From contig NC_019973.1 of the NCBI RefSeq assembly GCF_000230995.2, positions 620,001-684,000 of the forward strand: DNA of 64,000 nucleotides, given 5' to 3'. The position numbers and the translations under genes were made by a program. This document shows, piece by piece, positions 16,470 to 20,489 of this stretch. The notes below the pieces were generated by a model, which saw only the letters and a list, made by a program, of their open reading frames with translations, searched no databases and had not been told where the DNA came from. The stretch's first letter is position 1; each line of letters opens with the position of its first letter. The DNA comes from Mesorhizobium australicum WSM2073 (GTDB lineage Bacteria; Pseudomonadota; Alphaproteobacteria; Rhizobiales; Rhizobiaceae).

Positions 16470-16504
16470 GCGCCGCCCTTATGCTCCCCCAGATCAGGCG
16501 GCGC
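16470..16504 (-). terminator. Hairpin at the end of the DAHP synthase gene
   Basis: Eight-base arms GCGCCGCC and GGCGGCGC span the stop codon of the gene, with a 19-base loop. Only a weak T-rich stretch follows. It may help end transcription, but it is not a classic intrinsic terminator. Confidence 0.3.
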
Positions 16505-17585
16505 CTTGCCGGCTGTCCAGCAAGTTGCGGCGCGCCGACCGGCGCCATTCCACGGCGCCGGCAAGGCCGTGCAGCACCGTCTCCGTGGTCGCCCAGTCGA
16601 TGCAGCCATCGGTGATGCTCTGGCCGTAGACCAGTGGCTTGCCGGGCACGACATCCTGCCGGCCGGCGACGAGATTGCTCTCGATCATGACGCCGATGAT
16701 GCGCTCGTCGCCAGCCGCCACTTGGCCCGCGACATCGGCCGCGACCTTGGGCTGGTTCTCCGGCTTCTTGGCTGAGTTGGCATGGCTGACGTCGATCATC
16801 AGACGGGGGGCGATACCGATGCGGACGAGTTCGACCGATGCGGCCTCGACGCTTGCCGCATCGTAGTTGGGCTGAACGCCACCACGCAGGATGACATGGC
16901 AATCCTCATTGCCGGTGGTCGCCGCGATGGCGCTGCGTCCGCCCTTGGTCACCGCCATGAAATGATGCGGCTGGGCGGCCGACTTCACCGCCTCGCCGGC
17001 GATCCTGAGATTGCCGTCGGTGCCGTTCTTGAAGCCGACCGGGCAGGAGAGACCCGAGGCCAGCTCGCGATGGATCTGGCTCTCGGTCGTGCGCGCGCCA
17101 ATGGCGCCCCAGGCGACGAGGTCGGCAATGTATTGCGGCGTCGTCATATCGAGGAATTCGGTCGCCGCCGGCAGGCCGAGATTGTTGACGGCGGAAAGCA
17201 CGTTGCGTGCCGTCCGCAACCCCTTGTCGATGTTGAAGCTGCCATCCAGGTCGGGATCGTTGATCAGGCCTTTCCAGCCGACCGTGGTGCGCGGCTTCTC
17301 GAAATAGACGCGCATGACGATCTCGAGCCGGTCGGACAGAGCCTCGCGCAGCGCCGCCAGACGGCTGGCATAATCAACGGCCGCGACCGGATCGTGGATG
17401 GAACAAGGGCCCACGATGACAACAAGCCGATCGTCGGCCCCGGTGAGGATGGAGTGAATGGCGTTGCGCGAGGCGGCAACGGTGCGTGTCGCCGTGAGTG
17501 AGCGCGGTATCTCGCGCATCACCTCGTCCGGCGTGCTCAGCAGTCTCAGTTCCTTGACCCGGAGGTCGTCTGTGGTGGTCAACAC
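16494..17585 (-). CDS. aroG: 3-deoxy-7-phosphoheptulonate synthase (DAHP synthase), class I AroG/F type
   Basis: This enzyme condenses PEP and erythrose 4-phosphate, the entry to the shikimate pathway. Landmarks in the 363-residue product are VGPCSIHDPVAA (about residue 63), EKPRTTVGWKGLINDP (about residue 98) and DVSHANSAKKPENQ (about residue 265). I place the start at a GTG with AGGAG nine bases upstream. The in-frame extension to 17669 would translate through an intrinsic terminator and lacks homology, so it is rejected. The 159-base leader contains a complete attenuator with an aromatic leader peptide. Confidence 0.93.
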   Translation of the reverse strand: MLTTTDDLRVKELRLLSTPDEVMREIPRSLTATRTVAASRNAIHSILTGADDRLVVIVGPCSIHDPVAAVDYASRLAALREALSDRLEIVMRVYFEKPRTTVGWKGLINDPDLDGSFNIDKGLRTARNVLSAVNNLGLPAATEFLDMTTPQYIADLVAWGAIGARTTESQIHRELASGLSCPVGFKNGTDGNLRIAGEAVKSAAQPHHFMAVTKGGRSAIAATTGNEDCHVILRGGVQPNYDAASVEAASVELVRIGIAPRLMIDVSHANSAKKPENQPKVAADVAGQVAAGDERIIGVMIESNLVAGRQDVVPGKPLVYGQSITDGCIDWATTETVLHGLAGAVEWRRSARRNLLDSRQGAA

Positions 17586-17623
17586 GGCTTTCTGCTCCTG
17601 TTTGGGAACCTGCCGGCTGAAAC

Positions 17624-17648
17624 AAAAAAGCCGCCAGGTCTGGCGGCT
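17624..17648 (-). terminator. Attenuator terminator in the aroG leader
   Basis: On the minus strand AGCCGCCAG-AC-CTGGCGGCT is followed directly by six T residues, a textbook intrinsic terminator. It lies between the leader peptide and aroG rather than after a gene. Its 5' arm GCCGCCAG is exactly complementary to CTGGCGGC inside the leader peptide coding sequence (17695-17702), which provides a competing antiterminator. Confidence 0.88.
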
Positions 17649-17672
17649 GTTCGGATCTTGTTGCTGCAATCT

Positions 17673-17744
17673 TCAGATCGAGCGCAATCCTCCCGCCGCC
17701 AGCGAGCTCCTAAAGTACCAATACGTGGCGGTCAGGTTGATCAT
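17673..17744 (-). CDS. Aromatic leader peptide of the aroG attenuator
   Basis: This 23-codon reading frame has Tyr-Trp-Tyr-Phe at residues 8-11 and ends in TGA 24 bases before the terminator stem. Codons 15-17 (Leu-Ala-Ala) contain the CTGGCGGC antiterminator arm. A ribosome stalled on the aromatic codons leaves that arm free to pair, whereas one that finishes covers it. This is the arrangement expected for control by aromatic aminoacyl-tRNA supply. There is no Shine-Dalgarno sequence, and the promoter is so close that the transcript probably begins at or within a base or two of the ATG. Confidence 0.82.
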   Translation of the reverse strand: MINLTATYWYFRSSLAAGGLRSI

Positions 17745-17751
17745 GCGTCGG

Positions 17752-17779
17752 CTATAGCTGAACTTGCGTTGAATGTCAC
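17752..17779 (-). promoter_or_regulatory. Housekeeping promoter of the aroG leader
   Basis: A -35 element GTGACA (17774-17779) and a -10 element CTATAG (17752-17757) are separated by 16 bases. They resemble the rhizobial sigma-70 consensus CTTGAC-N17-CTATAT. Seven bases separate the -10 from the leader ATG, which puts the transcription start at about the A of the start codon. Confidence 0.65.
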
Positions 17780-17850: not shown

Positions 17851-18096
17851 ATGCCGCTTTATGTGAAGGACCGGGAAGTCGACCGGCTGGTACTTGAGGT
17901 GCAGCGCCTCACGAAGGCGCCGAGCAAAGCCGAGGCGGTTCGCCGGGCCCTGACGCATGAAATTGAGCGCGCCCGCAGTGCCCAAACTGTGTCGGAACGC
18001 TTGGCGGAGGCAGTCAGAATGGCTGGCGAAATCGGAGCGGATAATCCTGACTTCGATATGAGAGCCTATTCGGACGAGCTTTCAGGGGGACTATGA
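17851..18096 (+). CDS. vapB: VapB-type antitoxin
   Basis: The 81-residue protein has a short ribbon-helix-helix-like N-terminus (MPLYVKDREVDRLVLEVQRL) and a charged helical tail, as in PSK-family VapB antitoxins. It would bind and neutralise the PIN toxin encoded next and repress its own promoter. The stop overlaps the toxin start by four bases, the standard coupling of type II modules. An AAAAAGGA stretch precedes the ATG. Confidence 0.88.
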   Translation: MPLYVKDREVDRLVLEVQRLTKAPSKAEAVRRALTHEIERARSAQTVSERLAEAVRMAGEIGADNPDFDMRAYSDELSGGL

Positions 18097-18518
18097 GCTT
18101 GTTCATTGACGCTTCGGCGGTCGTCGCTCTGTTGCGTCCGGAGCCCACGGCAGGAGAACTCGCCGCCCGGATGGACGCCCATGGCGGGCCTTTCTTCATT
18201 TCGGCGATCGTTCGTTTCGAGACCGCGATGGCCTTGGCGCGTTCAAAGACCCCCCTGCCTTCACCCATCCAACCGGCGGCAGTCGCAAAGGCGAATGCGG
18301 CCGTGGACCGTTTCGTGCAGGATTTGGGAATCGGCGAGGTCCTCATTTCGGCCGAAGTCGGGCGGCTCGCCATCGAAGCCGCACGCAGTTACGGCAAGGG
18401 TGTCGATTCGCCGGCGCAGCTCAATATGGGCGATTGCTTTTCCTACGCCTGTTGCAAGGCATATAATTTGGCTTTGCTCTACACCGGTCAGGATTTCAAA
18501 AAGACAGACATAGGATAG
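18093..18518 (+). CDS. vapC: VapC-type PIN-domain ribonuclease toxin
   Basis: The 141-residue PIN domain carries the acidic active-site residues: Asp6 in FIDASAVVALL, Glu about 42 in VRFETAMALAR, Asp about 117 in NMGDCFSYACC, and a further Asp in TGQDFKKTDI. VapC toxins cleave specific RNAs such as tRNAs when freed from VapB. The motif is intact, so the toxin is probably active. Module placement beside the aroG promoter has no obvious functional link. Confidence 0.92.
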   Translation: MSLFIDASAVVALLRPEPTAGELAARMDAHGGPFFISAIVRFETAMALARSKTPLPSPIQPAAVAKANAAVDRFVQDLGIGEVLISAEVGRLAIEAARSYGKGVDSPAQLNMGDCFSYACCKAYNLALLYTGQDFKKTDIG

Positions 18519-18553: not shown

Positions 18554-19348
18554 CTACTCCGGCGACGACCCGGCGACACTCTGATCGTAGTCGACCAGCG
18601 ATCCGGTCATGACGCCCGATTGCGGGCTGACCATGTAGCTGATCAGCCGTGCGAGCTGGTCCGGCTTGACCAACTGGCCCATCGGCTGCGCGGCTTCGGC
18701 CTTCGCCAGCCAGTCGTCGGGCGCATCGTGCCATTTCTTCTGCACGATGTCCTCGCCCTCGGTGTCCATCCAGCCGGGCAGCACGGCGTTGCAGCGGATG
18801 CGGTTGAAGCGATAAGCGTTGGCGACGTTCTTGGTCAGCGTCATCAGCGCGCCCTTGCTGGTCGAATAGGGCGTCAGGAAGGACTGCCCGGTATGCGCCG
18901 ACATCGACAGCACGTTGACGATCGATCCGGGCGCCTTTTTCTCCAAGAGATGCGCCACCACGCCCTGCATCAGAAAAAACGGGCCGCGCACATTGGTGTC
19001 GAAGATCTGGTCGAACAGCTCTTCTGAGGTCTCGACCAGCGAGCCGCGCGCCGAGGTGGCGGCGGCGTTGACCAGGGCGTTGATCGTACCGAAATGCGAG
19101 AGCGCGGTGGCGACCGCGCGCTTGCAGTCGGCAACCTTGGAGACATCGGCGCTGATGAAGATGGCGTCGACGCCTGATTTCCTGAAATGAGCGACAGCCT
19201 TGTCGCCCTTCTCCTGCGAGCGGCCGATGAGCGCCAGCGCCCGGCAGCCTTCGTCGGCCAGCGCTTCGGCGACCGCGAATCCTATGCCTTGCGCACCGCC
19301 GGTGACGATGGCGCGTGTGTTCGAATTGCGATCGGCGGATGCGCTCAT
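18554..19348 (-). CDS. Short-chain dehydrogenase/reductase at the end of the inositol transporter operon
   Basis: The 264-residue SDR has the nucleotide-binding TGGAQGIGFAVAEAL (about residue 16), the NAAA segment, and catalytic Ser and YSTSKG (Tyr/Lys near residues 160-164). It follows iolG by 30 bp on the same strand. Position suggests oxidation or reduction of an inositol or sugar derivative; the substrate is not identifiable. Confidence 0.87.
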   Translation of the reverse strand: MSASADRNSNTRAIVTGGAQGIGFAVAEALADEGCRALALIGRSQEKGDKAVAHFRKSGVDAIFISADVSKVADCKRAVATALSHFGTINALVNAAATSARGSLVETSEELFDQIFDTNVRGPFFLMQGVVAHLLEKKAPGSIVNVLSMSAHTGQSFLTPYSTSKGALMTLTKNVANAYRFNRIRCNAVLPGWMDTEGEDIVQKKWHDAPDDWLAKAEAAQPMGQLVKPDQLARLISYMVSPQSGVMTGSLVDYDQSVAGSSPE

Positions 19349-19378
19349 CGCTCTGCTCCTGTGCGTTGGGTCCGGTTC

Positions 19379-20374
19379 TTATTTGTCGAGACGAATGGTC
19401 TTGCCCGTGGTCGCCGACTTCAGCGCCGCATCGGCCAGCTTCAGCGCCACGAGGCCATCAGCGCCGCTCGGCGCCGCCTTCTTGCCGGATGTCGCCGCAG
19501 CGATGAAGGCGGCGATCTCGAGGGCATAGGCGTCGAGGTAGCGGGTCATGAAGAAGTCGTGCAGCGGCGGGCGCGTGTAGCCCTTCTCGTTGGCGAGCTC
19601 GATCGACACCGGCCGCTGGTTCTCGGCCGCCACCATGCCCTTCGAGCCGTGCACCTCGATGCGCTGGTCGTAGCCATAGGTGGCGCGGCGCGAATTGGAG
19701 ATGACTGCCTGCTTGCCCGAAGCCGTTTCGAGGATGACGCTGACCGAGTCGAAATCGCCGGCTTCGCCGATTTTCTTGTCGACCAGCACCGAGGCGTGCG
19801 CGCTGACCGCGACAGGCTCCTCGCCGAGCAGGAAGCGCGCCATGTCGAAATCATGGATGGTCATGTCGCGGAAAATGCCGCCCGAGCGCTTGATGTAGTC
19901 GATGGGTGGCGCGCCGGGATCGCGCGAGGTGATGGTGACCATCTCGACGGTGCCGATGGCTCCGTCGTCGATCGCCTTGCGCACGGCGGCGAAATGCGGG
20001 TCGAAACGCCTGTTGAAGCCGACCATCAGGGTCGCCTTGGCCTTGTCGACAACGGCCAGGCACTGCTCGACCCGCTTGACGTCGAGGTCGATCGGCTTCT
20101 CGCAGAAGATCGCCTTGCCGGCCTTGGCGAAGCGCTCGATCAGATCGGCATGGGTGTCGGTCGGCGTGCAGATGACGACCGCGTCGATGTCCTTGGACTT
20201 CTCGATTTCGTCGATGCTGCGCACCTCGGCGCCATAGGCAACAGCCAATTCGCTCGCCGCCTTCTCGAAGGCATCGGCCACGGCGACCAGTTTTGCCTGG
20301 GGGTTGGAACCCACGGCGCGGGCGTGGACCTTGCCGATGCGGCCGGCACCAAGGAGGGCGAAGCGAACAGTCAT
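19379..20374 (-). CDS. iolG: Inositol 2-dehydrogenase (IolG/IdhA type)
   Basis: This enzyme oxidises myo-inositol to 2-keto-myo-inositol with NAD+. The 331-residue protein has GAGRIGKVHARAV at residues 8-20, CEKPIDLD near residue 93, and the catalytic segment GGIFRDMTIHDFDMARFLLG near residue 165. Length matches rhizobial IdhA. The ATG at 20374 follows a GAGGA, and a longer upstream reading lacks homology. It sits downstream of the ABC transporter genes, so uptake and first oxidation are cotranscribed. Confidence 0.9.
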   Translation of the reverse strand: MTVRFALLGAGRIGKVHARAVGSNPQAKLVAVADAFEKAASELAVAYGAEVRSIDEIEKSKDIDAVVICTPTDTHADLIERFAKAGKAIFCEKPIDLDVKRVEQCLAVVDKAKATLMVGFNRRFDPHFAAVRKAIDDGAIGTVEMVTITSRDPGAPPIDYIKRSGGIFRDMTIHDFDMARFLLGEEPVAVSAHASVLVDKKIGEAGDFDSVSVILETASGKQAVISNSRRATYGYDQRIEVHGSKGMVAAENQRPVSIELANEKGYTRPPLHDFFMTRYLDAYALEIAAFIAAATSGKKAAPSGADGLVALKLADAALKSATTGKTIRLDK

Positions 20375-20489
20375 GGATATTTTCCTCTGGGGATGGTTCG
20401 AAGCGGGGCGCCGGTCATGGGCGCTGAATGATTTTACGGTCAAGACAAATCGACGGGAAGGCGATGACCATCGCCTCCGAGCCCGGCCC

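Follow-up and report, generated by a model that had tools for sequence, protein, structure and literature searches.

A probable ribosome-mediated attenuator with aromatic leader codons upstream of class I DAHP synthase genes in Mesorhizobium and other Pseudomonadota

The aroR leader of Corynebacterium glutamicum was reportedly described by Neshat in 2014. It encodes Phe-Tyr-Phe before the aroF operon, and ribosome-stalling attenuation has been reported for it (PMC11802643, PMC4046766); according to the available part of one of these sources, the aroF leader responds to Phe and not to Tyr (PMC11802643). The leader studied here, from Mesorhizobium australicum WSM2073, resembles aroR in placing aromatic residues before a DAHP synthase gene. 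It differs in that C. glutamicum belongs to another phylum and that the three aromatic residues named in those excerpts include no Trp, the likeness drawn here being one of description. In Acholeplasma, the predicted motif uORFC-13-1 precedes aroF and, in the portion of text at hand, has 24 representatives from Acholeplasma and environmental sequence (PMC8632094). Like the present leader, it lies before a DAHP synthase gene and consists of a short ORF with one or more Phe codons beside an intrinsic terminator; unlike it, the motif as excerpted is described with at least one Phe codon (PMC8632094).

The Rfam family Phe_leader (RF01859), which comprises leaders of pheA and pheS, shares the design of a Phe leader ORF with a switchable terminator, but serves other genes and is dominated by Phe codons. 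The window, by which we mean the whole 64 000-nucleotide stretch of DNA analysed, scores 19.2 bits against this model (E = 0.9; gathering score 55) and is not a member. No family of Rfam 15 reaches its gathering score in the window or in ten relatives. The trpL leader of Sinorhizobium meliloti has three Trp codons. It too attenuates an aromatic pathway gene, in a species of the same order, and has a leaderless ORF on a small RNA, but as far as the excerpted source goes it controls trpE and encodes a 14-residue peptide (PMC10117765). The attenuation mechanism itself is classical and of a known kind. A literature search, which did not cover the 2004 survey of proteobacterial attenuators (Vitreschak), found no leader before DAHP synthase for Pseudomonadota.

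On the minus strand of the window, a promoter-like GTGACA-N17-TATAGC is followed, after six bases, by a leader ORF, a terminator, a Shine-Dalgarno sequence and the class I DAHP synthase gene. The features are as follows.

17774..17779, minus strand: -35-like box GTGACA, from sequence; box and spacing recur in 72 of 105 loci
17751..17756, minus strand: -10-like box TATAGC, from sequence; 17 bases after the -35-like box and 6 before the leader ATG
17673..17744, minus strand: leader ORF MINLTATYWYFRSSLAAGGLRSI, 23 codons and stop, without a Shine-Dalgarno sequence, from sequence and genus comparison
17711..17722, minus strand: putative sensor, aromatic codons 8-11 (TAT TGG TAC TTT), from sequence and codon-by-codon conservation in the genus
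17724..17741, minus strand: segment 1 (approximate limits), 5' side of the 1:2 hairpin, from the minimum-energy fold of the window
17695..17702, minus strand: segment 2, antiterminator partner CTGGCGGC in codons 15-17, from pairing and alignment
17640..17647, minus strand: segment 3, terminator 5' arm GCCGCCAG, from terminator scan, pairing and alignment
17630..17637, minus strand: segment 4, terminator 3' arm CTGGCGGC, from terminator scan, pairing and alignment
17624..17629, minus strand: terminator U tract TTTTTT, from sequence and terminator scan
17595..17599, minus strand: DAHP synthase Shine-Dalgarno sequence AGGAG, from sequence
16494..17585, minus strand: class I DAHP synthase gene, AroF/G/H type, from TIGR00034 and solved relatives

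The gene product scores 518.8 bits against TIGR00034, for which the cut-off is 173.2, and is thus a DAHP synthase; its best solved relatives are also DAHP synthases (E = 4.9e-139). The start codon is GTG at 17585 or TTG at 17582. The leader extends from the ATG at 17744 to the TGA at 17675-17673. An earlier reading made from the sequence only had described a 23-codon frame with four adjacent aromatic codons followed by an intrinsic terminator, and this is what the minus strand contains: the terminator reads GCCGCCAG-AC-CTGGCGGC-TTTTTT, and the terminator scan reports the same hairpin. On its two strands together, the window has 788 short ORFs with distinct stops and a length of 12-40 codons. 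Two of them contain at least four aromatic codons in six, and only the MINLTATYWYFRSSLAAGGLRSI leader is followed by a terminator. Folding of the minus strand is more stable than that of shuffled sequences (z = -2.28), with one of 200 shuffles as low. The leader-terminator arrangement is thus real and beyond chance.

Divergent from the leader, two overlapping ORFs without an NCBIfam match lie on the plus strand (17851-18518); we take them to resemble a VapB/VapC toxin-antitoxin pair. Farther upstream on the minus strand (18554-20443) are genes for an SDR oxidoreductase (NF004847) and an inositol 2-dehydrogenase (TIGR04380). Just past the U tract (17600-17623) there is a GCCGGC/GCCGCC-like stretch, kept in many alpha- and gammaproteobacterial loci. 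Pairing of segment 4 with this GCCGSC-like stretch was considered and is unsupported overall (p at most 0.05 in 10 of 55 sequences, mean p 0.42).

The element very likely controls the class I DAHP synthase gene as a ribosome-mediated transcription attenuator and would very probably raise the level of the enzyme when Tyr, Trp and Phe run short. RNA polymerase would start at or beside the leader ATG, and a ribosome would load on the probably leaderless RNA. When the supply of charged Tyr, Trp or Phe tRNA is low, the ribosome would stall on codons 8-11 and occupy segment 1, leaving segment 2 free to pair with newly made segment 3; no terminator would form and the gene would be transcribed. When charged tRNAs are available, a ribosome moving through codons 12-22 would cover segment 2 while segments 3 and 4 emerge, so that the terminator could form. 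In RNA without a ribosome, termination would be favoured by the 1:2 hairpin, the earliest to be made. The parts, their conservation, the complementarities and, with an assumed ribosome footprint, the spacing rest on sequence and comparison; the start site, stalling, timing, termination and amino acid response are what we infer from them. For control by all three aromatic amino acids, the codons themselves are the only indication.

Leader and gene differ in their translation signals: an anti-Shine-Dalgarno energy of -6 or lower is found before one of 153 leaders, whereas 130 of the 153 gene starts have one. In Alphaproteobacteria, 72 of 105 loci have a promoter-like box pair (at least 72 per cent identity) with a 17-base spacer, placed 6-8 bases ahead of the leader ATG; among the others, 15 match when the spacer is read as 19 and 18 have no match. 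The missing Shine-Dalgarno sequence and the proximity of the boxes to the ATG suggest that the leader ORF is leaderless, and it probably starts at the first base of the RNA, as does trpL in Sinorhizobium. By eye, TGTGNTATCANT-like boxes lie near the ATG in most of nine Xanthomonadales sequences, and in Burkholderiales, where the alphaproteobacterial spacing is not seen, TATA-like boxes are placed about 25-40 bases upstream of the leader ATG. The Burkholderiales leader is thus probably not leaderless.

The resemblance to Sinorhizobium also raises the possibility that the terminated RNA or the peptide has a trans-acting role in addition to control in cis, as rnTrpL and peTrpL have in S. meliloti. 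The build is the same, rnTrpL being described in the consulted part of the source as a small terminated RNA with a leaderless ORF (PMC10117765), but the sequence and length of the peptide differ between classes, and we regard such an additional role as unlikely. Still less probable is a role of the leader ORF in translational control of DAHP synthase, through coupling, reinitiation or an arrest peptide, with the hairpin not being the main switch. The ORF does lie about 90 nt before the gene, and its C-terminal GGLRSI is kept in the genus. Against this, the gene has its own Shine-Dalgarno sequence in the 130 loci mentioned above, a terminator separates it from the ORF in 151 of 153 loci, and the stretch coding for the C-terminal residues overlaps with the RNA partner of the terminator arm.

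Transcription attenuation, the preferred reading, calls for two competing helices, and both are conserved. The terminator was not found at two of the 153 loci (L058 and L067); four others with a wrong automatic pick (L029, which does carry a leader, L042, L065 and L073) were left out of the terminator and pairing counts, and identical sequences were counted once in the structure counts. The terminator 5' arm can pair over at least 6 bp with the leader in 133 of 151 loci, as compared with 3 of 151 for a control stretch of equal length upstream of the ATG. On the alignment, 96.1 per cent of the cells of the terminator helix are paired, with double changes in four of eight pairs. The antiterminator helix has 86.0 per cent of its cells paired and double changes in 15 cells, a number above all 500 shuffles (which give 3.8), although these ignore relatedness. 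The eighth 2:3 pair is not kept (unpaired in 33 of 55 sequences). Three-way changes are seen as AGGCGG with CCGCCT in L024 and L025, and as CCGGCGG with CCGCCGG in L050. The covariation is modest because the GGCGG core hardly varies. The alternative pairing of the terminator 5' arm with codons 15-17, which the sequence-only reading had put forward, is upheld by the presence of CTGGCGGC in these codons and by the double changes in both helices.

Fold predictions were made for 42 sequences, chosen from 55 non-redundant ones for a pairing of at least 6 bp. Segment 2 is predicted to pair with upstream RNA in 35 of them, forming the 1:2 hairpin. With the upstream RNA removed, 41 of 42 have 2:3 as their minimum-energy fold; once segment 4 is included, only 12 of 42 retain it.

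The position of the ribosome was modelled with an assumed footprint that extends 18 nt upstream and 12 nt downstream of the first base of the A-site codon. At equilibrium, the antiterminator of the window is free with the A site up to codon 11 (probability 0.98), falls to 0.06 at codon 12 and is near zero to codon 22; it returns to 0.70 at codon 23 and to 1.00 at the stop codon, the value also obtained with no ribosome. The same calculation was applied to 39 leaders with a pairing of at least 6 bp and a GGCGG core. With this footprint, the masked zone starts at the last aromatic codon in nine of them and at the next codon in 19 (28 of 39 together). For 229 of 253 aromatic codons that precede the core, the antiterminator exceeds 0.5; it does so in 23 of the 39 leaders when the ribosome is at the stop codon. 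Measured from the first base of the last aromatic codon, the GGCGG core starts 14 nt downstream in 105 of 130 loci, or 23 of 39 non-redundant ones.

The core of the earlier interpretation, a leader-peptide attenuator, is well supported by comparison; that interpretation had overlooked the 1:2 hairpin and the probable leaderless start. Its proposal that completed translation would cover the pairing segment does not agree with the model, in which the segment is masked at codons 12-22 and free at the stop: segment 2 would be covered by a ribosome in transit over the tail of the leader and not by one that has finished. Since the antiterminator of the window prevails at equilibrium on free RNA as well as with a ribosome at the stop codon, termination in these states would rest on timing. 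The modelled preference of the free RNA for 2:3 speaks against simple termination in the absence of translation, which would be possible only if the 1:2 hairpin formed first and held.

Within the genus Mesorhizobium (named near relatives have 93-98 per cent identity), the leader is present at 76 of 76 loci, whose upstream regions come from 73 genomes. Together with the conserved helices, this agrees with the conservation of leader codons and stem complementarity that the earlier reading had proposed to examine. The class I DAHP synthase gene is carried by 138 of 146 genus genomes. A covariance model of the element, R1 (133 positions, built from 55 non-redundant sequences of several classes), gives a full-length match (E at most 2.8e-17) in 138 of these 146 genomes, and the same eight genomes lack both gene and full-length match; among the eight, four have no R1 match and four have weak ones (E = 1.1e-6 to 5e-4). 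The adjacency of leader and gene was established at the 76 loci read, among the 138 genomes with matches. Codon 8 is TAT, TTT or TTC, which switches Tyr and Phe but keeps an aromatic residue. Codon 11 is TTT in 39 of 39 distinct genus leaders, and the C-terminal end GGLRSI is likewise kept. One relative (L101) has a natural variant in which the Trp codon is changed, YWYF becoming YRYF.

Nucleotides fixed beyond the amino acid, such as the invariant TTT of codon 11, are what would be expected to accompany a metabolite or protein binding the leader RNA directly, as in a riboswitch or repressor site, with an incidental ORF. Such binding is nevertheless highly improbable: the aromatic codons are kept even where the encoding at codon 8 shifts between Tyr and Phe, their end lies at a fixed distance from segment 2, and no Rfam family is matched at gathering score in the window or the ten relatives.

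The element is not confined to the Rhizobiales, the frame in which the sequence-only reading had placed it. Leaders of the same build precede class I DAHP synthase in other Alphaproteobacteria (Bradyrhizobium, Devosia, Methylosinus and Phenylobacterium), in Xanthomonas, Stenotrophomonas, Dyella and Rhodanobacter, and in Bordetella, Burkholderia and its kin, and Massilia and its kin. Among 80 named loci (L002-L081), 62 have a leader, 15 have none and three have spurious picks only; one of the 15 (L035) has merely 52 nt of upstream sequence. The named loci in which no leader was found include those of Erwinia, Citrobacter, Photobacterium, Enterovibrio, Methylotenera, Thauera and Dechloromonas. 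In the order of the studied strain, the class I gene is found in 46 of 297 sampled genomes.

In a phylum sample of 397 genomes, the 55 best R1 matches, all full-length and from 55 genomes (nine of them in the genus), lie directly before a DAHP synthase gene with an aromatic leader, without exception; three weaker matches do likewise. The next matches include six before genes read from their translations as pheS or pheA. All five of these that were tested belong to Rfam Phe_leader, a known attenuator, whose recovery among the weaker matches serves as a positive control for the model. For six further weak matches, four of them inspected in sequence, neither a DAHP synthase gene nor such a leader was recognised. 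On a tree of 82 DAHP synthases, 64 with a leader, the distribution of the leader requires six changes, as compared with a shuffled mean of 16.5. That a chance ORF merely precedes a constitutive terminator, or one belonging to the opposite strand, is next to inconceivable: the hairpin is nearly palindromic and a weak partial match (17.2 bits) exists on the plus strand, but the scan gives a T run for the hairpin on the minus strand only, the leader is one in 788 short ORFs of the window, and its conservation in the genus and in other classes contradicts such an origin.

Leaders vary between lineages. The Trp codon is missing from some betaproteobacterial leaders. A leader type with few adjacent aromatics, for example MSFAHAYASRFYSYRCSQRRRACA, occurs in Rhizobium tropici and family relatives (L047, L229, L232, L239 and L240), and the Trp codon is absent in some members. 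In Candidatus Burkholderia humilis (L042), the aromatic leader continues in a shifted frame without a stop before the terminator and looks as if decayed; its near relatives have intact leaders. Two contigs with class I DAHP synthase, labelled as Melainabacteria and Anaerolineae MAGs (L049 and L067), are placed among Pseudomonadota in the tree and are possibly misbinned.

A class II DAHP synthase was found in all 12 genomes searched, namely eight without the class I gene, that of the studied strain and three others. The attenuated enzyme of this strain is therefore a second, class I DAHP synthase. An aromatic leader before the class II gene was sought in four genomes, and there is none in that of the strain or in G060. 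Short aromatic ORFs occur before the class II gene at two loci and were rejected as chance: the one at L160 because no T run follows it (by eye) and because it is missing from three other genomes without the class I gene, the one at L162 because it lies more than 500 nt upstream. Upstream of the class II gene (L159, L161, L162 and L112-L114), a stretch like TTCATGTATTGAGCC is kept, and a short CCCCAT..GGGG repeat is present.

TrpR and TyrR are repressors known from Escherichia coli. In the available portion of a regulon survey, they are described as conserved in gammaproteobacteria and absent in other classes (PMC5343134). We tentatively propose, as a possibility that falls somewhat short of even chances, that the leader acts as an OR gate, in which any Tyr, Trp or Phe codon stalls the ribosome and frees the antiterminator, and that the element, missing under TyrR/TrpR control, would be a general and ancient means of regulating class I DAHP synthase in those Pseudomonadota that lack the two repressors. 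With codons for three end products of one pathway mixed in a single leader, the share of each can be tested codon by codon, and R1 provides a ready covariance model for an element unmatched by any Rfam 15 family. For many alpha- and betaproteobacteria and for Xanthomonadales, the attenuator suggests a way in which entry into the aromatic pathway is controlled.
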